Shown here in pieces: positions 28,988 to 39,096 of a stretch of DNA of 39,096 nucleotides. The notes under the pieces are model-generated. The model saw only the letters and a list, made by a program, of their open reading frames with translations. It was not told the origin of the DNA and ran no database searches. This stretch comes from Oscillochloris sp. ZM17-4 (lineage in GTDB: Bacteria; Chloroflexota; Chloroflexia; Chloroflexales; Chloroflexaceae): positions 49,385 to 88,480 of the forward strand of contig NZ_JAIEWN010000001.1 of NCBI RefSeq assembly GCF_019599295.1, written 5' to 3'. The position numbers were made by a program, and so were the translations under genes. The first letter of the stretch is position 1, and each line of letters starts with the position of its first letter.

Positions 28988-29100
28988 GCGTGCATCCTCG
29001 ATCTACACGCGTGCATCCTCGATCTACACGCGTGCATCCTTTATCTACACTACGCCTCACGCCTCACGCCTCACGCCTCACGCCTCACGCCTCACGCCTC
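28988..29100. repeat. Tandem 21-bp and 7-bp repeats upstream of the kinase
   Basis: Three copies of a 21-bp unit (28988-29050, core GCGTGCATCC) are followed by seven perfect copies of ACGCCTC (29052-29100). The 21-bp unit is three times seven, so both tracts keep the period seen elsewhere. They lie in the kinase leader or promoter region; no gene is supported in 28946-29175. Confidence 0.92.
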
Positions 29101-29175
29101 CACCATAGCATGCCCCTCGGGACTCGGGGAGTCCGGTGGCTGATCCGTGATGCGTGATGCGTTGATCAGATCCAA

Positions 29176-29460
29176 TTAGACGGGGCACAGAAACAAGTAA
29201 GGAGCTAGCTCAGGAATAAGCTGCTGGCGGAACTTGAGCTTCCGCCCGTAGATGTCGGGGGTTTTATTCTGAACATTCTCAACATGCCGACGAACAGTGT
29301 ACTGGCTGATACAGCGTATCGATGCTATACTCTGATCGCTGTGGCCCTGAACTGCTAGCATGACAATATCTCGTTCAGGTGGATGTAAGAGCCGTAGAAA
29401 TTGACGGGCATTCTCTAGCTGAATTCGTTTTTTGGAATTCAGATCATCGAGCCAGTTCAT
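29176..29460 (-). CDS. Small LuxR-type HTH protein, 94 aa
   Basis: The segment LLHPPERDIVMLAVQGHSDQSIASIRCISQYTVRRHVENV follows the LuxR/GerE helix-turn-helix pattern, from the E-R-D/E-I-V helix to the T-V-R-R-H recognition helix. It has no receiver or ligand domain, only a 25-residue N-terminal helix and a short hydrophobic C-terminus. The ATG at 29460 is fixed by AAGGAG 6-7 nt upstream; the frame extends further without homology. It lies 19 nt after the gene at 29480 and probably shares its operon. Base composition is clearly less GC-rich than the surroundings, consistent with transfer. It could be an orphan regulator or a mobile-element protein. Confidence 0.7.
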   Translation of the reverse strand: MNWLDDLNSKKRIQLENARQFLRLLHPPERDIVMLAVQGHSDQSIASIRCISQYTVRRHVENVQNKTPDIYGRKLKFRQQLIPELAPYLFLCPV

Positions 29461-29479
29461 AGCGTACTCCTTCCTGACG

Positions 29480-29707
29480 TTATAGTTGATCATCGTCAGG
29501 TAGCTGACGCAACTGCTGTTTGAGTTGAGCGATACGCTTGGCGGCCTGTCTTTCAACCTCCTCAGGCGCGACTGTCTCCAGACTCTGTAACTCTGCTTGT
29601 GCTGCTTCACAGTCACGAGCAAACCGTGCTGTAGCCCATTCCATGCGCTGTAGGATCGTCAGTGCGTTGTCTAGAGGGTCTTGCATACTTTCCTCGTTTA
29701 CCGCCAT
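29480..29707 (-). CDS. Small helical protein of unknown function, 75 aa
   Basis: The protein is mainly charged helix (LDNALTILQRMEWATARFARDCEAAQAELQSLE, then EEVERQAAKRIAQLKQQLRQL), probably a coiled coil, with an acidic end. Two starts are plausible, 29707 (AGGA 6 nt before) and 29686 (GAGGA 5 nt before). It precedes the LuxR-like gene by 19 nt on the same strand and shares its lower GC content. I do not recognise the family. The arrangement of two small co-directional genes, one DNA-binding, allows a regulator and partner pair, but nothing in the sequence proves it. Confidence 0.6.
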   Translation of the reverse strand: MAVNEESMQDPLDNALTILQRMEWATARFARDCEAAQAELQSLETVAPEEVERQAAKRIAQLKQQLRQLPDDDQL

Positions 29708-29805
29708 AGCAATCCTAATCATTAACCAGATCATTGAGTTTGCGTCTGCCGGTAGAATAGCATCTATTTCGAGGCAACGCAATGGTTAAGATCAACCATA
29801 ATAAA

Positions 29806-29837
29806 AACAGCACCAGTCAATATTGACTGGTGCTGTT
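29806..29837. repeat. Perfect 32-bp palindrome
   Basis: The sequence 29806-29837 is an uninterrupted palindrome centred on AATATT (half-site CAGCACCAGTC). It lies upstream of the two-gene AT-richer operon. With AAAAA before it and TT after, it could be a terminator or a binding site for a dimeric regulator such as the LuxR-like protein. Confidence 0.7.
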
Positions 29838-29915
29838 GCAATCCCTCAAAGGGATCGTGATAACGAGCAATCCTAACTCATTGTTTCAATCCGCCAGGCG
29901 GATGCGGTGGTGGAC
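29835..29915. repeat. Two CRISPR-repeat-like segments, no array
   Basis: GTTGCAATCC-CTCAAAGGGAT (from 29835) and GTTTCAATCC-GCCAGGCGGAT (from 29883) share the start GTTKCAATCC and a following short palindrome (CCCTCAAAGGG against CCGCCAGGCGG). This is the style of many CRISPR repeats in Chloroflexota and cyanobacteria. They are only 48 bp apart start to start and are not identical, so there is no normal spacer. They may be the degraded end of an array or two solo repeats. Confidence 0.35.
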
Positions 29916-29930
29916 AGTCAGTATAGCACA

Positions 29931-30360
29931 CTACAGATCCTCTGGCGTCAGCAGCTCGCCCGACGGGTACGGCGAATTGTTCTGCAATGAATTGTTCTGC
30001 AATGAATCGTCACCGCGTCGGGGCGGCCCTGGTGGCCACCCACAACGCCAATCATCGCAGCAATGCCGGGCATTGCCCGCATTGATCTCGCCAATGCGGG
30101 CAATGCGGCGCATTGGGGGCGGGCACACAGGCCCGCCCCTACGGCATTGCGTGCGCTGCGGTGCAGGAACATACGTCAGCAGCTCGCCCGGCTCCTCGTC
30201 ATGCTCCAGCCACTCGGCGATCACGCGCAGGGCCAGGGCCTGCGCCCGCGCGATAGCTTCTTCACGCGTTGATCCATAGGCAAGCACGCCGGAGAGCTCT
30301 AGGATCTCGGCGATCCAGCGTACATCTTCCTCATTGCTCAGTCTCCACCGTCAAATGCAT
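29931..30360 (-). pseudogene. HicB-family antitoxin, frameshifted and carrying an insertion
   Basis: Read from the ATG at 30360 (AGAGG 7-8 nt upstream), the protein starts MHLTVETEQ and stops at once. Removing one base near 30333 restores ETEQEEDVRWIAEILELSGVLAYG, which continues into STREEAIARAQALALRVIAEWLEHDE, a clear HicB antitoxin pattern. The frame then enters 76 foreign codons before ending GELLTPEDL. The duplicated GELLT at both sides of the foreign part shows where an in-frame insertion happened. Without both changes the protein would be about 70 residues, normal for this HicB subgroup. No HicA toxin is adjacent. It follows the Uma2 gene on the same strand. It is probably inactive, unless a later GTG at 30287 is used. 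Confidence 0.75.
29946..30190. mobile_element. Small insertion flanked by 17-bp direct repeats
   Basis: CGTCAGCAGCTCGCCCG occurs at 29946-29962 and again at 30174-30190, 228 bp apart (76 codons exactly), inside the hicB remnant. The segment between contains two copies of GAATTGTTCTGCAAT (about 29973-30002), GCAATGC-type inverted motifs (30060-30118) and a GGGGGCGGGC/GCCCGCCCC hairpin (about 30114-30140). It encodes no transposase. The direct repeats look like a target duplication or recombination footprint. Confidence 0.6.
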
Positions 30361-30398
30361 CAGCGTGCCTCTTTCACGGAATGCTATGCTCTCATGGC

Positions 30399-31019
30399 TT
30401 ATGCCAGCACCGCCTCCACATCCACCGCCCCGATGGCCGCACCATCGAGCGTCAGCGGGATATGCTCGCCGCGCCGGTAGTCATCGCGGCGGGCGAAGCG
30501 CGGCTCGCTGGCCGGCCCGCTCGGCTCCTGGTAGACCTCGACCAGCCCATCGACCAGGTTGACGATCCAGTAGGCCACGATGCCGGCGGTAGCGTAGAGG
30601 CGCTGCTTCGTCGTCCGGTCGCGCTGGAGCGTGCTGTCCGACACCTCAACTACCAGCGCAACATCATCGGGGCCGGGGTGGCGGTCGCGGTACTGCCGGC
30701 GGTCGCCGCGCACGATCACCACATCCGGCTCGGGCTCGCTATCGGCGGTGGTGATTGGCTCTTGGGCATCAACGTACCAGCCTGCGGGCACCAGCTGGGC
30801 CAGAGCCTCGCGCAGCAGCTGCGTGGCCAGGCGGTGCGGCGGGTTTTTGGGCATCTTCGTTACCAGCCATCCCTCAAGCAGCTCAACCGGATCATCGTCG
30901 GTAAGGATTCCACTCTGCACCATCTGGTGGTACTGGGCGATGCTCAGCCGCCAGATCGGGCTGTCTGGCACCATCAGGCTCGTGCTGGTGCGGGCGGCGC
31001 GCTGAGTGTCTACGCTCAT
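30399..31019 (-). CDS. Uma2-family putative endonuclease
   Basis: A 206-residue Uma2 (DUF820) protein with a PD-(D/E)XK-like nuclease fold. Typical blocks are MTTAQYHQMV-like RLSIAQYHQMVQSGIL, VELLEGWLVTKMPKNPPH, EPEPDVVIVRG, VALVVEVSDSTLQRD and KQRLYATAGIVAYWIVNL. The E-P-D, E-V-S and K residues correspond to the predicted active site. The family is greatly expanded in cyanobacteria and Chloroflexota and many members sit near repeats or small elements, but the natural substrate is not known to me. It stands just upstream of the broken hicB and downstream of the WYL gene. Confidence 0.9.
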   Translation of the reverse strand: MSVDTQRAARTSTSLMVPDSPIWRLSIAQYHQMVQSGILTDDDPVELLEGWLVTKMPKNPPHRLATQLLREALAQLVPAGWYVDAQEPITTADSEPEPDVVIVRGDRRQYRDRHPGPDDVALVVEVSDSTLQRDRTTKQRLYATAGIVAYWIVNLVDGLVEVYQEPSGPASEPRFARRDDYRRGEHIPLTLDGAAIGAVDVEAVLA

Positions 31020-31056
31020 AGTATTGCCTCACAGAACGCGGATCGCGGATCACGGA

Positions 31057-32007
31057 TCACCCATTATCATTATACAGCTCCGTCAGCCTGCGCACCTCCT
31101 CGGCCATGCGCGCGCGCAGCTCGGGCGGGCCGAGCAGCTCGGCGTTGGAGCGGTAGCGCAGCAGGGCCTGGATGATGAAGAAGTCGCTGCGCCCCTCGGC
31201 CTCGATGATCACATCGCCGCCGGGCAGCCGCTCGACCACGCGCTGCGCGGCGAAGCGCTGGCTCAGCTCGCCCTGGGCCAGCGCGGCGGCCAGGCGGTAG
31301 CGAAAGGTGATCGGGCGGCGCGTGTGCGCCATGCCCGGCGGGAGCGAGCGCAGCGCACCCGCCGCCAGGATCCGGTCGACGCGCAGGTCGTGGACCTGGC
31401 CGCTGTTGTGCGAGTAGGCCACCAGGTAGAAGTGGCGGTCGTAGTACTCGATGGCGTGCGGCTCCACCATGCGGTGGGTCGTCTCGTCGCCGCGCGAGTT
31501 GCGGTAGCGCAGGCGCAGCAGCTGGCGGCCCGCGATGGCCCGCTCCAGCTCGGCGATCCGCGCGGCGTGGGGGCCGTAGTCGATCGCCGGCTGGACGGGC
31601 GCGCCGCCGGCGCGCTGCGCATCGTAGGCGGCGCGCTGGGCGTCGCCCAGCGCGGCGGTGAGCCGCGCGAGCAGCCCGGCGACCTGGCGGGCGTAGGGGT
31701 GGTTGGGTCCGACGCTGTCGCGGAGCACGGCGAGGGTCAGCAGGTCGTCGTCGCCGTAGGCCGGCGCGCCGCCGCGCAGCGTGTAGGTCGTTGGGGTCTC
31801 ATCGCTGCGCTGGACAGTCACGCCCAGCGCAGCGAGGTGCTCGATATCGCGGGCGATCATGCGCCGCGCGCTCGCCGGGGAGGGGTAGGTCGCGCCGAGG
31901 CGGGCGATCAGATCCGGGTAGGCCAGCGGCCCGTCGCGCAGGGCGTCGAGCAGCGCCCGCAGGCGGATGATTAGCGCGGTGCTATGCGGCGAGAGCGGTG
32001 TGGGCAT
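31057..32007 (-). CDS. WYL-domain transcriptional regulator
   Basis: A 316-residue protein. The N-terminal about 70 residues form a DeoR-like winged helix (ALRDGPLAYPDLIARLG, ARRMIARDIEHLAALGVTVQR). A central WYL domain at about 160-240 reads LRLRYRNSRGDETTHRMVEPHAIEYYDRHFYLVAYS, with FYL in place of W-Y-L, and DLRVDRI. A WCX-type C-terminus follows (FFIIQALLRYRSNAELLGPPELRARM). WYL proteins sense ligands or nucleic acids and often control defence or stress genes. The ATG at 32007 is the first in homologous sequence and lies 25 nt after the candidate RiPP precursor stop, so it may be the last gene of the radical SAM operon. Confidence 0.88.
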   Translation of the reverse strand: MPTPLSPHSTALIIRLRALLDALRDGPLAYPDLIARLGATYPSPASARRMIARDIEHLAALGVTVQRSDETPTTYTLRGGAPAYGDDDLLTLAVLRDSVGPNHPYARQVAGLLARLTAALGDAQRAAYDAQRAGGAPVQPAIDYGPHAARIAELERAIAGRQLLRLRYRNSRGDETTHRMVEPHAIEYYDRHFYLVAYSHNSGQVHDLRVDRILAAGALRSLPPGMAHTRRPITFRYRLAAALAQGELSQRFAAQRVVERLPGGDVIIEAEGRSDFFIIQALLRYRSNAELLGPPELRARMAEEVRRLTELYNDNG

Positions 32008-32032
32008 GGCGGATGGCGCGCGGTCGGTGCGG

Positions 32033-32254
32033 TCAGCGTGGGCCGTGCATACACACCGCGATATTGCGCGCCGCCAGGTCGCCGCCGGCCGCGCCCTCGG
32101 TGGCGGGCGTGGTGGCCTCGCAGCCCCCGCCCTTAAAGAATTTATCGTGCATCGTCGATAGCATGATCTCCTCACCATCGGGGGTGAGGCTATCCTGGCC
32201 GAGCTCACGAAGCACATCCTCAAGGCTATACCTGATATCGATCTTCACGTTCAT
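32033..32254 (-). CDS. Candidate RiPP precursor peptide, 73 aa
   Basis: GGAGG lies five bases before the ATG at 32254; the upstream ATG at 32266 would place that site inside the coding region and is rejected. The N-terminal part (MNVKIDIRYSLEDVLRELG, then TPDGEEIMLSTMHDKFF) is helical and acidic like a leader. The C-terminal part is rich in Gly, Ala and Thr with just two cysteines: KGGGC (C45), ATTPATEGAAGGD and NIAVC (C68), ending MHGPR. Gly-Gly sites at 42-44 and 57-58 could mark leader removal. It starts 51 nt after the radical SAM/SPASM gene on the same strand. The class is not one I recognise, so the role as substrate is inferred from size, composition and position. Confidence 0.65.
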   Translation of the reverse strand: MNVKIDIRYSLEDVLRELGQDSLTPDGEEIMLSTMHDKFFKGGGCEATTPATEGAAGGDLAARNIAVCMHGPR

Positions 32255-32305
32255 CGCATCCTCCATGCATGGCCCTGATAGTCCACAAGCACAACCACCA
32301 TCGCA

Positions 32306-33469
32306 TCATATACCCAGGCTACAGAGATCACACCCCTCCAGCTCACGGGTAATGGTCTCGCGAATGCTGAGGACATCGGCAGAGCTTTGCCAGATCTCCC
32401 TGAACGAGCGCTGGGTAAGCTGGCCGAGCGGGGAGCGATACAGCCGCTTCATCTTCAGGCAGGGGAGCAGGCTGCCATCTTCACAGATCGAGAAGAAGGA
32501 GAAGCCCGCCTTGCATAGCTTCTGCTTGTACGGCTGCGTCTTTGCGCTGGCATTCGCGCGCATGAACTCCTGAATCTGCTGCGCATCAAGGCGCTCGACA
32601 AGATTCTCCGTCCCGCCATCATCCTTGGGGAATATCTCGGAGTCAAAATGCACCGGTATGCCCATCGGGTCGCCGATATCGTCGCGAACCTTCTGGAATG
32701 TGTCAACATTCGACTTCATGACCGAGCAGTTAATCCGCACATCGAAGCCGGCCTCTTGTAAGAGGTGCAGCGCGCGCACGGTCTTGTGGTAGGATCCAGG
32801 CGCGTGGGTGATCTGATCGTGAACCGCGGGCTCCGAGCTATACAGGCTGATATGGATCCGATAGATATTCGCCAGATCGTGCAGTGCGCGCACGACCGCC
32901 TCGTCAATCAGCGTGCCGTTCGAGTTGATCCGCACCACAAACTTCTGCTCAGACAGATAGCTCAGGATATCGAGGATATCCTTTCGAAAGAACAGCTCCC
33001 CGCCGGTCAGCACAAGCCCGAGCGTCCCACAGTCGCGCAGGTCGTCTAGAATCCGAAAGACCTGCGCGGTGCTCAGCGTGTCCTGCCTCGTAGCAAAGAG
33101 GCCATAGCAGTGGTTGCAGCGCAGATTGCAGCGCCCGGTGAGCTCAAAGTGGCCGCTCATCGGGATATGGTTCTTGAACGCCCACATGTTCAAGATGCCA
33201 ATATCGATCTCCTGGGCCTGCTGCGCCAGCGCGCGCCCGTCCGGCGCTGACGGCGGGCGCGCGGCGGCGTCGCCCAGCAGATCGAGGCTCACCAGCCGCG
33301 CGTAGAGCGGGTGCCCACGATCGGGCGGCCGCGATGGCCCGGCGGCCGCGATATCACTCCAGAGCTGGAGGGCCTGGCCTTGCAGCAGCGCCACACGGCG
33401 CGTCTTGACGTTCATGACAACCGCGAGCGAGTCGCCATATATTCGATACACGACTGCTTTGGGGATCAT
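32306..33469 (-). CDS. Radical SAM/SPASM peptide maturase with PqqD-like N-terminus
   Basis: A 387-residue protein. Residues 1-75 (VVYRIYGDSLAVVMNVKTRRVALLQGQALQLWSDI) resemble a PqqD-type RiPP recognition element. The radical SAM core has CNLRCNHC with C114, C118 and C121 for the 4Fe-4S cluster and the GGE motif in LVLTGGELFFRKDI. The C-terminal SPASM-type region carries C319, C329, C337, C380 and C383 (GFSFFSICEDGSLLPCLK ... GCDLC), which would hold auxiliary clusters. Such enzymes install thioether, carbon-carbon or epimerised residues in ribosomal peptides or mature enzymes. GGAAGG precedes the ATG. The downstream 73-residue peptide is the obvious candidate substrate; the reaction cannot be told from sequence. 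No peptidase or exporter is adjacent. Confidence 0.92.
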   Translation of the reverse strand: MIPKAVVYRIYGDSLAVVMNVKTRRVALLQGQALQLWSDIAAAGPSRPPDRGHPLYARLVSLDLLGDAAARPPSAPDGRALAQQAQEIDIGILNMWAFKNHIPMSGHFELTGRCNLRCNHCYGLFATRQDTLSTAQVFRILDDLRDCGTLGLVLTGGELFFRKDILDILSYLSEQKFVVRINSNGTLIDEAVVRALHDLANIYRIHISLYSSEPAVHDQITHAPGSYHKTVRALHLLQEAGFDVRINCSVMKSNVDTFQKVRDDIGDPMGIPVHFDSEIFPKDDGGTENLVERLDAQQIQEFMRANASAKTQPYKQKLCKAGFSFFSICEDGSLLPCLKMKRLYRSPLGQLTQRSFREIWQSSADVLSIRETITRELEGCDLCSLGI

Positions 33470-33486
33470 AGGTCACCTTCCTGCAA

Positions 33487-33612
33487 TCAGCGATCTGCGC
33501 CGCCTCGCTCGCCGCTCATCATAGCCGCCAGCTGGGCGCGGGCACGAATCGTTTCTGCCACCCGCAGAGAGGCTTTCGTAACAGTACTGCGCACAGTGAG
33601 GGTGTGTCCCAC
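33487..33612 (-). CDS. Possible 41-aa peptide ahead of the radical SAM gene
   Basis: A GTG-started frame of 41 codons (TLTVRSTVTKASLRVAETI, then RARAQLAAMMSGERGGADR) ends 17 nt before the radical SAM start. It is basic and Ala/Arg-rich, without cysteine. No Shine-Dalgarno is visible before the GTG. It may be only leader sequence; it is listed because small genes beside such enzymes can encode substrates. Confidence 0.22.
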   Translation of the reverse strand: MGHTLTVRSTVTKASLRVAETIRARAQLAAMMSGERGGADR

Positions 33613-33618
33613 AACAAA

Positions 33619-33665
33619 GCTGATGGTGCTGCGGCGCGGCGTAGCCGCGCCGCAGCACCATCAGC
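33619..33665. terminator. Perfect 22-bp hairpin after the acyl-CoA synthetase gene
   Basis: Arms 33619-33640 and 33644-33665 pair perfectly around the loop GTA. It lies 38 bp beyond the synthetase stop on the minus strand and before the radical SAM gene, separating the two transcription units. Confidence 0.65.
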
Positions 33666-33702
33666 TGCAGCATGTGCCTGCTGGGCACAGAGAGCAGGAC
33701 AT

Positions 33703-35277
33703 TTAGGCGAGCAGGTGCTTCTGCACCTTGCCCATGGCGTTGCGTGGCAGCGCGTCGACGTAGTGGATCTGGCGCGGGCGCTTGTAGGCGGCCAGCCCCT
33801 CGCGGCAGAAGGCGGTCAGCTCGGCGCTGAGCGCGGCCTCGGCGGCGGCGTCTGACGGGCGGGACTCGGGCGTCATCACCACCCAGGCCGCCACCTGCTC
33901 GCCGAAGTCGGCGTCGGGCAGGCCGCGCACCGCGCACTCGGCCACCGCCGGGTGGGCCAGCAGCCGCTCCTCAACCTCGCGCGGGTAGATGTTGTAGCCA
34001 CCGCTGATGATCAGCTCGCGCGCCCGCCCGGTGATCGTGAAGTAGCCGTCGGCGCTGCACATCCCCAGATCCCCCGTGCTAAACCAGCCGTCGGCCCCGA
34101 AGACCTCGGCGGTCGCCGTGGGGTTGCGCCAGTAGCCCGCGCAGACGTGCGGGCCGCGCACCTGGATCTCGCCGACCTCGCCGGCGGGCAGCGGCTGGCG
34201 CGAGCGCACGCCCACCACGCGGGCCTCCTGTCCGGGGAAGGGGCCGCCCACCGTGCCGGGGCGGCGCTCGCCAGCGTAGGGGTTCGTCAGGTTCATCACC
34301 GTCTCGGTCATGCCGTAGCGCTCAAGGATGGCGTGGCCGAAGGTGTTGCGGAACTCCTCAAACACCTGCGGCGGCAGCGCGGCCGAGCCGGAGACGAAGA
34401 GGCGCAGCGAAGAGAGACGCCGAGAGAAGTGGCCACTTCTCTCGGCGCTCTCTTCGCGAGGGGCGACATGCAGCAGCCGCCCGTAGATCGTCGGCACGCC
34501 GAAGAACATGGTGATCGTGCCGTCGGCCAGCGCCGCCAGGGCCTCGTCGGGGTCGAAGCGCGGGCGCAGGTCCATGCTGGCCCCGGCGAGCAGGGTGCCG
34601 TGGACGCCCACGCCGAGGCCGTGGATGTGGAACAGCGGCAGCGTGAGCAGCAGGCGGTCGCGCTCCGTCCAGCCCCAGGCGCTCGTCACCGCCGCGCTGT
34701 TGGACACTAAGTTGCTATGGGTGAGCATGGCGCCCTTCGAGCGGCCGGTGGTGCCCGAGGTGTAGGCTAGGATGGCGAGATCAGCCGCCTGCGGCGGCTG
34801 AATGTTGAATGTTGAATGCTGAATGTTGAATGGTGTACCGGGCGAGTCAGATAGCCCGAAAAGGGAGTCGTCACATGTAAGCTGCGCGATCTGAACGCCC
34901 TGGGCGCGCAGTTGTCCCAGGGCCATGCGCAGCTCGGGGGCGCTCTCGGCGTCGCCCACCACCGCGCGGGGTGCGCTGTCGGCGAGGATGTGGCCGAGCT
35001 CGGTCTGGCGATACTGGGTGTTGATCAGCACGGCGGCGGCGCCGGCCATGTGCGCGCCGAGGTAGGCGGCCAGGAAGGCCGGCGTGTTGCCCAGGTAGAG
35101 CCCGACCCGATCGCCGCGCATCACGCCCAGCTCGGCGTAGCGGGCGGCCCAGGCGGCGGCGGCGGCGGCCAGCTGGCCGTAGCCGATCACCGCGCCGCGC
35201 CAGATCACACAGGGGCGCTGCGGGTCGGCGGCGGCGTGGCCGAGCAGGGCGGCCAGGATGGAGTCGGGGGCAGGCAT
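33703..35277 (-). CDS. Acyl-CoA synthetase (AMP-forming), adenylate-forming family
   Basis: A 524-residue ANL-superfamily enzyme activating a carboxylic acid with ATP and CoA. Signature blocks are the P-loop YTSGTTGRSKG at 172-182, the A4-type LPLFHIHGL, ERYGMTETVMN, STGDLGM and GRARELIISGGYNIYPREVEE, and a C-terminal PRNAMGKVQK with the adenylation lysine. It is of the FadD/malonyl-CoA synthetase-like group; the substrate is not fixed. The frame opens further upstream, but that part is only the heptamer array, so the ATG at 35277 with GGAG 8 nt before is used. Two repeat-derived inserts are in frame: FNIQHSTFNIQ (150-160) and a hairpin-encoded segment ESAERSGHFSRRLSS (near 275-290). Confidence 0.9.
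   Translation of the reverse strand: MPAPDSILAALLGHAAADPQRPCVIWRGAVIGYGQLAAAAAAWAARYAELGVMRGDRVGLYLGNTPAFLAAYLGAHMAGAAAVLINTQYRQTELGHILADSAPRAVVGDAESAPELRMALGQLRAQGVQIAQLTCDDSLFGLSDSPGTPFNIQHSTFNIQPPQAADLAILAYTSGTTGRSKGAMLTHSNLVSNSAAVTSAWGWTERDRLLLTLPLFHIHGLGVGVHGTLLAGASMDLRPRFDPDEALAALADGTITMFFGVPTIYGRLLHVAPREESAERSGHFSRRLSSLRLFVSGSAALPPQVFEEFRNTFGHAILERYGMTETVMNLTNPYAGERRPGTVGGPFPGQEARVVGVRSRQPLPAGEVGEIQVRGPHVCAGYWRNPTATAEVFGADGWFSTGDLGMCSADGYFTITGRARELIISGGYNIYPREVEERLLAHPAVAECAVRGLPDADFGEQVAAWVVMTPESRPSDAAAEAALSAELTAFCREGLAAYKRPRQIHYVDALPRNAMGKVQKHLLA
34407..34457. repeat. In-frame palindromic insert in the acyl-CoA synthetase gene
   Basis: A 51-bp hairpin: GAAGAGAG and CGCCGAGAGAAGTGG blocks on one side are repeated inverted on the other, with one unpaired A. 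It encodes an arginine/serine-rich stretch just before the conserved LRLFVSGSAALPP, where relatives have a short loop. Confidence 0.8.
34798..34832. repeat. Five heptamer units inside the acyl-CoA synthetase gene
   Basis: CTGAATG, TTGAATG twice, CTGAATG, TTGAATG: 35 bp in tandem, without a facing inverted arm. It is translated as part of FNIQHSTFNIQ before the P-loop. Confidence 0.9.
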
Positions 35278-35290
35278 ATGCAGCGCTCCG

Positions 35291-35474
35291 TTGAATGTTG
35301 AATGCTGAATGTTGAATGCTGAATGTTGAATGCTGAATGTTGAATGCTGAATGTTGAATGCTGAATGCTGAATGCTGAATGCTGAATGTTGAATGCTGAA
35401 TGCTGAATGTTGAATGCTGAATGCTGAATGCGGCTGCCCGACCATTCAACATTCACAATTCAACATTCAACATT
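35291..35474. repeat. Twenty-unit heptamer array with inverted partner
   Basis: Twenty consecutive copies of YTGAATG without error (35291-35430), then 12 bp, then about four inverted CATTCAA-type units (35443-35474). It occupies the gap between the divergent acyl-CoA synthetase and STAS genes. A frame through it reads as an IQHSAFS repeat, which I treat as non-coding. Confidence 0.95.
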
Positions 35475-35485
35475 ATTATACCGTC

Positions 35486-35514
35486 GGTTCCGTGATACCT
35501 CGCCCTGCTATAAT
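35486..35514 (+). promoter_or_regulatory. Possible promoter of the membrane STAS gene
   Basis: TATAAT at 35509-35514 with a poor -35 (GGTTCC at 35486-35491, 17-nt spacer). It points to the ATG at 35563 and begins right after the heptamer array. Confidence 0.45.
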
Positions 35515-35562
35515 GGGATTGGCGCATTGCCCTTTTCTTGCACTATTAACCGGAGTGCCGCC

Positions 35563-36633
35563 ATGATTGATCGGCTGCTCACGATCCCCACGAATGACGA
35601 AGACATCCAGCGTCGCGGACGGACGATCCTGTCGGTCGCGCTGGTGCTGCTGGGGCTGGTGATCCTCGCCAGCGTGGCCGTGATCTTCCGCCCCGACGCG
35701 ACGCCATCGCTGCTGGGGCTGCTCGTCGCCGCCGTGGTGATCGTCGCCTCGATGGCCCTGACCCACCGGGGGCAGGTCGGCCTGGCCGCATGGGTGCTGG
35801 TGATCATGATCCTCGGCGCGGCGATGGTGCCGATCATGATCCGGCGCGAGGTGACCAGCGCGCTGCTCTACCTGACGCTGCCGGTGGTTGTCGCGGGGGT
35901 GGTGCTACGGCCCTGGCAGGTCTGGCTGGTGCTGTGCGCCGGGCTGCTGGTCGTCGCCTACAAGGCGCTGGGGGACGCGGCCGGCCCACAGAGCCAGCCT
36001 GAGCCGTGGGTGCTGCTGGCGAACAGCGGCATGGTGCTGGCGACCTTAGGGGTGATCAGCTTCCTGAGCGCCCGGATCGTCGTGCACGCCTTCGCCGAGG
36101 TGTCCGCATCACGGCGGGCCGCCGAGGCCGCCGCCCATCAGCTAGAGGAGCTCAACCATAGCCTAGAGGGCCGGGTGGCCGCGCAGACATCCGAGCTGCG
36201 CGCGGCCTTCGCGGAGGTGCAGGCCCAGGCGAACGAGAGGCAGGCGCTGCTCGACAAGATCACATCCCAGCGTGCGGTGATCCGCGAGATGAGCGTGCCG
36301 GTGCTGCCGTTGAGCGCCGACACTCTGGTGATGCCGCTGGTGGGCGACATCGACGGCGAGCGCATGGTCGCCATCCAGGCCGAGGCCCTGGCGGCGATCG
36401 AGCGCAGCCGCGCCCACACCCTGCTGATCGACCTGACCGGGGTGGCGGTGGTGGACACCTACGTGGCCCAGGGGCTGCTGCGCACGGTGCAGGCGGCCAG
36501 CCTGCTCGGCACGCGCTCCGTGCTGATCGGCATCCGCCCCGAGGTGGCCCAGGCGATCGTCGGCCTGGGGATCGATGTTGGCGATGTGAAGACGGCGGCC
36601 AACCTGGCGAGCGCCCTCTCCTCCTTATCATGA
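35563..36633 (+). CDS. Membrane STAS-domain regulator (RsbR-like)
   Basis: A 356-residue protein. The N-terminal part has about six membrane helices (near 21-42, 49-67, 73-93, 99-115, 119-133 and 149-174). A coiled coil at about 178-240 (RRAAEAAAHQLEELNHSLEGR) connects to a C-terminal STAS domain at about 240-350: REMSVPVLPLSADTLVMPLVG, LLIDLTGVAVVDTYVAQGLLRTV, LLGTRSVLIGIRPEVAQAIVGLG. This STAS domain is very like that of the soluble protein at 18937-19698, suggesting a membrane sensor feeding the same kind of partner-switching pathway. The ATG at 35563 is chosen because CGGAG lies 7-8 nt upstream and the frame above it is repeat DNA. Kinase and phosphatase partners are not in the window. 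Confidence 0.87.
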   Translation: MIDRLLTIPTNDEDIQRRGRTILSVALVLLGLVILASVAVIFRPDATPSLLGLLVAAVVIVASMALTHRGQVGLAAWVLVIMILGAAMVPIMIRREVTSALLYLTLPVVVAGVVLRPWQVWLVLCAGLLVVAYKALGDAAGPQSQPEPWVLLANSGMVLATLGVISFLSARIVVHAFAEVSASRRAAEAAAHQLEELNHSLEGRVAAQTSELRAAFAEVQAQANERQALLDKITSQRAVIREMSVPVLPLSADTLVMPLVGDIDGERMVAIQAEALAAIERSRAHTLLIDLTGVAVVDTYVAQGLLRTVQAASLLGTRSVLIGIRPEVAQAIVGLGIDVGDVKTAANLASALSSLS

Positions 36634-36634
36634 T

Positions 36635-36679
36635 CACAAAAGCGGCGCGGTGGGCGATGCCCACCGCGCCGCTTTTGTG
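36635..36679. terminator. Perfect 21-bp bidirectional hairpin
   Basis: Arms 36635-36655 and 36659-36679 pair perfectly around the loop GAT. The stem has AAAAG and CTTTT ends, so either strand yields a stem followed by a short T-run. It separates the convergent STAS and pyruvate phosphate dikinase genes. Confidence 0.8.
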
Positions 36680-36693
36680 CATCCTATGCGGGC

Positions 36694-39096
<2,403 letters not shown>

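Follow-up and report, generated by a model that had tools for sequence, protein, structure and literature searches.

A candidate two-gene RiPP-type cassette pairing a Twitch-type radical SAM enzyme with a small conserved peptide in Oscillochloris sp. ZM17-4

The window, by which we mean the whole 39,096-nucleotide stretch of Oscillochloris sp. ZM17-4 DNA that was analysed, carries on its minus strand a radical SAM maturase gene (33469-32306, 387 AA) and, after a gap of 51 nt (32255-32305), a precursor-like peptide gene (32254-32033) encoding 73 AA with two cysteines, C45 and C68. The gap translates in frame as CDGGCACGLSGPCMEDA and contains, immediately ahead of the peptide's start codon, a GGAG resembling a ribosome-binding site; an in-frame ATG further upstream at 32266 would give a peptide of 77 AA. 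The peptide is divided into a helical acidic leader (residues 1-32), block A (33-46), a loop (47-63), and block B (64-70). On the same strand, a WYL-domain protein gene (32007-31057) begins 25 nt after the peptide gene, and a 41-codon GTG frame (33612-33487) lies between the enzyme start and the terminator of an AMP-dependent ligase gene upstream. This terminator-like element (33618-33666, minus strand) is a perfect inverted repeat of 23 bp around a 3-nt loop, followed by a T-rich tail. It stands after the ligase gene and before the enzyme, and delimits the cassette on its 5' side. The gene coordinates, cysteine positions, and spacings of the original prediction for this DNA were all present on the minus strand.

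Several further features were observed around the cassettes. In both lineages, at locus L027 (9345-9405) as in the window, a long and perfect inverted repeat with a 3-nt loop lies just upstream of the cassette; the L027 repeat measures 29 bp and differs in sequence from the 23-bp repeat of the window. The Candidatus Chloroploca cassettes (L004, L005, and L006) share a conserved promoter-like TTGACA...TAGGAT just upstream of the enzyme, with no such match before the enzyme of the window. Short TTGAATG/CTGAATG repeats are dense at 35290-35470 of the window, and also at about 34800-34840, before and inside the AMP-ligase frame, and some of them translate as QHSAFSIQHS at the N-terminal end of the longest frame.

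Homologues were sought in 84,980 species genomes using single-sequence patterns of eight residues, so distant members may have been missed. The scan returned relatives of the enzyme from three Chloroploca genomes (71-72% identity) and, at 51%, from a MAG with the label Nitrospira japonica. The fifth locus returned, at 23% identity, encodes a different radical SAM protein. Directly after the enzyme in all four close relatives lies a small homologous frame, of 70 AA in Chloroploca (57% identity to the window peptide) and 77 AA in the MAG (34%). The original prediction had proposed that homologues be checked for a neighbouring peptide gene, and enzyme and peptide were adjacent, in the same order and in single copy, in 5/5 enzyme-bearing genomes from three lineages. 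Among 158 genomes of the class and 400 of the phylum, no genomes other than that of the window and those of the three Chloroploca had the enzyme, the peptide profile matched the same 4 of 400 Chloroflexota genomes as the enzyme profile, and in the MAG's class both profiles matched one of 230 genomes, the MAG itself. In these searches of Chloroflexota and the MAG's class, neither partner was ever seen alone. The enzyme was missing from five further genomes of the same genus as the window, and searches of viral contigs, plasmids, the 158 class genomes, and the phylum samples gave no additional close members. The carriers are certain filamentous green bacteria of the Chloroflexus type together with a single distant bacterium, and the distribution is rare and patchy. 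The pattern by which RiPP pairs are recognised, a modifying enzyme gene adjoining a short conserved precursor gene together with co-occurrence across genomes, was found here.

At all five loci (the window and L004-L007) the peptide start was in the reading frame of the enzyme, with gaps of 51, 24, 27, 24, and 12 nt. Full SPASM domains are present in the next relatives of the enzyme, which share about 30-33% identity in Nitrospirota and 27% on plasmids; when several of these loci were searched by pattern, no similar peptide was found. One of them, on Escherichia coli and Salmonella plasmids (L018:3566-5002), is a radical SAM protein of 478 AA, 27% identical and extended at its N terminus, which lies near a recombinase gene and has no annotated peptide partner.

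Conservation of the peptide frame, which the original prediction had singled out for checking, was evident from dN/dS ratios of 0.26 (0.34/1.31) between the window and C. asiatica, well below 1, and 0.23 (0.020/0.087) between C. asiatica and C. mongolica, the pairs used once the Khr17 peptide was left out; the ratio for the enzyme was 0.12. These ratios show that the peptide is under purifying selection. Between the window and C. mongolica, whose block sequences are the same as those of C. asiatica, 16 of 31 leader residues were identical, as were 14 of 14 in block A (STMHDKFFKGGGCE) and 7 of 7 in block B (NIAVCMH), with only 3 of 17 identical in the loop. The clustering of identities in the blocks (21/21 versus 3/17) has a hypergeometric P of about 3e-7, which is descriptive because the blocks were picked after inspection. 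Even in the MAG peptide, C45 and C68 are invariant, and D37, F39-F40, G42, G44, E46, and N64-I65 are also kept, although what is called invariant here rests on few sequences from three independent lineages. The MAG peptide has four cysteines, a loop longer than the 17 residues of the window, and a cysteine in place of H70 (NISICKC), giving C-x-C versus the C-x-H of the window and Chloroploca. Together, the adjacency at 5/5 loci, the purifying selection, and the clustered identical blocks indicate that the pairing of enzyme and peptide is more than chance.

Gly-Gly sites had been noted earlier, but the MAG has VGYGC, with G-x-G only, and since the double glycine is not kept there, it is not supported as a processing site for leader cleavage. 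A second suggestion, that the peptide fits no known precursor class, agreed with our library searches, in which the window peptide matched no curated NCBIfam or Pfam model; one family member gave chance matches to HGPRTase at E 0.1 and nothing else.

The enzyme begins with a predicted RRE-like wing of three strands followed by helices (residues ~1-65, from the structural model and fold alignment), continues with a radical SAM barrel containing C114, C118, and C121 in a CX3CX2C motif (~100-280), and ends in a tail (~317-387) with C319-X17-C337, C380-X2-C383, and an invariant C329. It matched the Pfam radical SAM model PF04055 and, weakly (27 bits), the SPASM model PF13186. The seven-cysteine SPASM motif CX9-15GX4C-gap-CX2CX5CX3C-gap-C was absent, with only C319, C337, C380, and C383 present, and in all five homologues the chain ends at L-x-I after C380-X2-C383, whereas aligned SPASM relatives continue past the CX2C with further cysteines. 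Judged from sequence, C319-X17-C337...C380-X2-C383 corresponds to the truncated SPASM, or Twitch, arrangement with ligands for one auxiliary cluster, the ligand set being that described for Twitch domains (PMC6231123). The tail is therefore of the four-cysteine Twitch type and not a full SPASM domain. The radical SAM/SPASM label given originally was correct as to C114/C118/C121 and five C-terminal cysteines (C319, C329, C337, C380, and C383), but its SPASM part must be replaced by Twitch.

Past the TGA of the window enzyme (32255-32308, minus strand), the frame reads CDLCSLGI-*-CDGGCACGLSGPC and would complete the SPASM CX2CX5CX3C exactly. No such cysteines follow the enzyme stop in Chloroploca or the MAG, and shuffled gap DNA contained at least four in-frame cysteines in 0.3% of cases. 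The post-stop cysteines may be a remnant, a sign of recoding, or chance. As a probe of enzyme-peptide contact, folding of the read-through fusion gave only a low-confidence model, with a pLDDT of 51.5 overall and below 35 in the peptide part.

To place the enzyme structurally, an AlphaFold2 model was built from 12 sequences (pLDDT 73.7). An RRE-type arrangement was found in the model, with strands at 6-11, 15-20, and 25-30 and helices at 31-46 and 56-61 (pLDDT about 60-80 there). Foldseek ranked SkfB first (E 4e-14) and SuiB next, and VIA-align gave Z scores of 22.6 for SuiB (rmsd 5.1, 323 aligned) and 22.4 for SkfB (rmsd 5.8, 301 aligned), the large rmsd (5-6 Å) implying either a different placement of the domains or a poor model of it. 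Because both alignments start at model residue 6, they include the RRE-like domain; the rows after these two begin near residue 100. SkfB was also the sole match at E<=1e-10 in a sequence search of the PDB (4.5e-14). The predicted fold is thus RRE, radical SAM, and Twitch, closest to SkfB and SuiB, with moderate confidence for the RRE. The N-terminal segment had been called PqqD-like, a description that survives as an RRE-like fold but as a structural likeness only: the PqqD model PF05402 matched none of three N-termini at E<=10 and nothing anywhere in the window's genome, and profile-profile comparison of the N-terminus with three PqqD-type domains returned nothing. No NCBIfam model reached its curated cut-off (265-650 bits). 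The best matches of the barrel included the SPASM families ScmE (118 bits, cut-off 400), AhbD (111.5, 500), NirJ2 (108.3, 500), WgkB (104.5, 650), and mycofactocin MftC (81.4), all far below cut-off, and the SkfB sactisynthase model TIGR04403 scored 62.6 bits versus a cut-off of 300.

The genes around the pair differ among carriers. Twelve other genomes of the family have the WYL gene and lack the cassette; the three Chloroploca genomes have the cassette with no WYL match at the threshold used. The gene does follow the peptide as first described, but since the two distributions do not overlap outside the window we rejected it as a component and regulator of the system. The 41-codon frame likewise exists but is not conserved, with nothing similar upstream of the homologues' enzymes, and was rejected as a second peptide. 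No protease or exporter adjoins the cassette or travels with it, as had been noted at the outset. One flank of the cassette in C. asiatica and C. mongolica holds what we take to be an olefin-synthesis-like set (hydrolase, ligase, and epimerase), the other flank in C. mongolica holds a very large secreted-type protein, the Khr17 cassette lies near an acetyltransferase-like gene, and that of the MAG lies between unrelated genes. The closest congener (G034) lacks the cassette, and the blocks that flank it in the window (28988-32011 and 33710-39096) are on different contigs there. Since the neighbours differ by lineage and the nearest relatives are without it, the cassette behaves as a stand-alone unit, and together with the WYL distribution and the split flanks in G034 this indicates that the travelling unit is the two genes alone. 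Comparison with G034 also places a rearrangement across window 28988-33710.

Among known systems, SkfB/SkfA, the sporulation killing factor sactipeptide system of Bacillus subtilis (PDB 6EFN), shares the RRE, radical SAM, and Twitch architecture, five C-terminal cysteines, and a first Twitch pair of C-X17-C. In SkfB this pair is C333/C351 and there is one auxiliary cluster (PMC6231123), and the enzyme, a Twitch RRE protein, makes a thioether in SkfA (PMC6231123, PMC8326336). In contrast, identity to the cassette enzyme is only about 20%, the last ligand pair is CXC in SkfB and CX2C here, the cassette peptide fits no NCBIfam precursor model, and no export or immunity genes lie beside the cassette. 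SuiB of the streptide-type RaS-RiPPs (SuiB/SuiA) shares the RRE and radical SAM fold (Z 22.6), but its SPASM domain is complete and the bond that it makes joins Lys to Trp, whereas the cassette peptide has no Trp and no quorum-sensing regulator gene accompanies it. The ranthipeptides (SCIFF, freyrasin/PapB) and the NxxC system (NxxcA/B) also place a cysteine-containing peptide beside a radical SAM enzyme, but their enzymes are SPASM and ours Twitch, and the peptide matched no NCBIfam model. Instead of the six cysteines in about 45 residues of SCIFF there are two here and four in the MAG, and N64-I-A-V-C68 is N-X3-C, so that the Asn four residues before C68 recalls the N-x-x-C core motif of NxxcA without matching it. 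Freyrasin has a CX3D spacing, which differs from the adjacent C45-E46 of the cassette peptide. The enzyme is thus predicted to be of the known RRE/radical SAM/Twitch kind; no paper describing the enzyme-peptide pair, or a family with such a precursor, was found in the literature searched.

Based on these data, a self-contained, co-inherited and co-conserved RiPP-type cassette of a radical SAM maturase and its cognate precursor is well supported, and the enzyme very probably modifies the 73-AA peptide. For the full reading, in which the product carries a radical thioether on C45 and/or C68, we estimate a probability of about 55%. By analogy with SkfB, CteB, and SuiB, the RRE-like domain would bind the leader, here at about residues 5-20 (Y-S-L-E-x-V-L-R-E-L); a 5'-deoxyadenosyl radical from the radical SAM centre would abstract a hydrogen in or near one conserved block; and the single Twitch iron-sulphur cluster would hold a cysteine thiolate and/or accept an electron. 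One or both cysteines would end up in an intramolecular thioether, with a mass change of -2 Da for each bond formed, and the unconserved, length-variable loop would act as a spacer between two functional ends. As the cassette is accompanied by neither a protease nor a transporter, any leader removal or export would fall to enzymes encoded elsewhere.

The fold does not fix the reaction, because SuiB shares it yet makes a C-C bond, and maturation may instead yield a C-C or C-O crosslink, an epimerised residue, or decarboxylation or oxidation at D37/F39-F40/E46 or N64, with the cysteines serving otherwise (disulphide or metal binding). SuiB (Lys-Trp C-C bond), PqqE, and EpeE (an epimerase) matched the fold at similar Z, and D37, F39-F40, G42, G44, E46, N64, and I65 are as invariant as the cysteines. 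However, SkfB, the solved protein nearest to the enzyme in both sequence and Foldseek ranking, forms a thioether, and a peptide that diverges elsewhere but keeps two cysteines unchanged usually points to thioether chemistry, so we consider maturation without a thioether possible but on the unlikely side. The change from C-x-H to C-x-C in the MAG is a His/Cys swap of the type seen at metal sites, and with a single copy per genome and neither exporter nor protease it suggests a small metal-binding peptide or carrier with an enzyme-aided C45/C68/H70 site and a cofactor-like or redox role in the cell; this we regard as improbable, since the swap is a single one, seen in one peptide, no family of metal sites was matched, and a leader-like acidic helix with an RRE-type enzyme fits ordinary RiPP logic.

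That the genes are chance neighbours, and the peptide a small regulator or toxin-like protein rather than a substrate, would suit the variation in neighbouring genes between lineages, but exact co-occurrence in two phyla, in the same order and with an RRE-type domain on the enzyme, makes this very improbable. A more speculative and rather doubtful proposal is an undescribed class of modified peptides, with two invariant blocks, FFxGxGCE and NIxxC-x-[HC], separated by a free loop and linked by a Twitch-type enzyme; the product would be a long-range cross-linked or metal-binding peptide that acts inside the cell, and its minimal two-gene cassette would have no protease, exporter, or regulator.

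Since none of the families in the searched libraries includes the peptide, the pair seems to represent a new, small branch of the peptides that are made by ribosomes and modified by enzymes. To our knowledge, few characterised RiPP enzymes are radical SAM maturases that combine an RRE with a Twitch tail alone; SkfB is the one with a solved structure, and little is known of the substrates of such enzymes. The cassette offers a compact two-gene enzyme-substrate pair with a conservation map that names the residues of interest, and its source, relatives of the phototrophic Chloroflexota, is a group scarcely present in the RiPP literature found. The pair would bear directly on the question of whether thioethers can be formed with a Twitch cluster alone, and on the possibility of a long-range bond across a variable loop.
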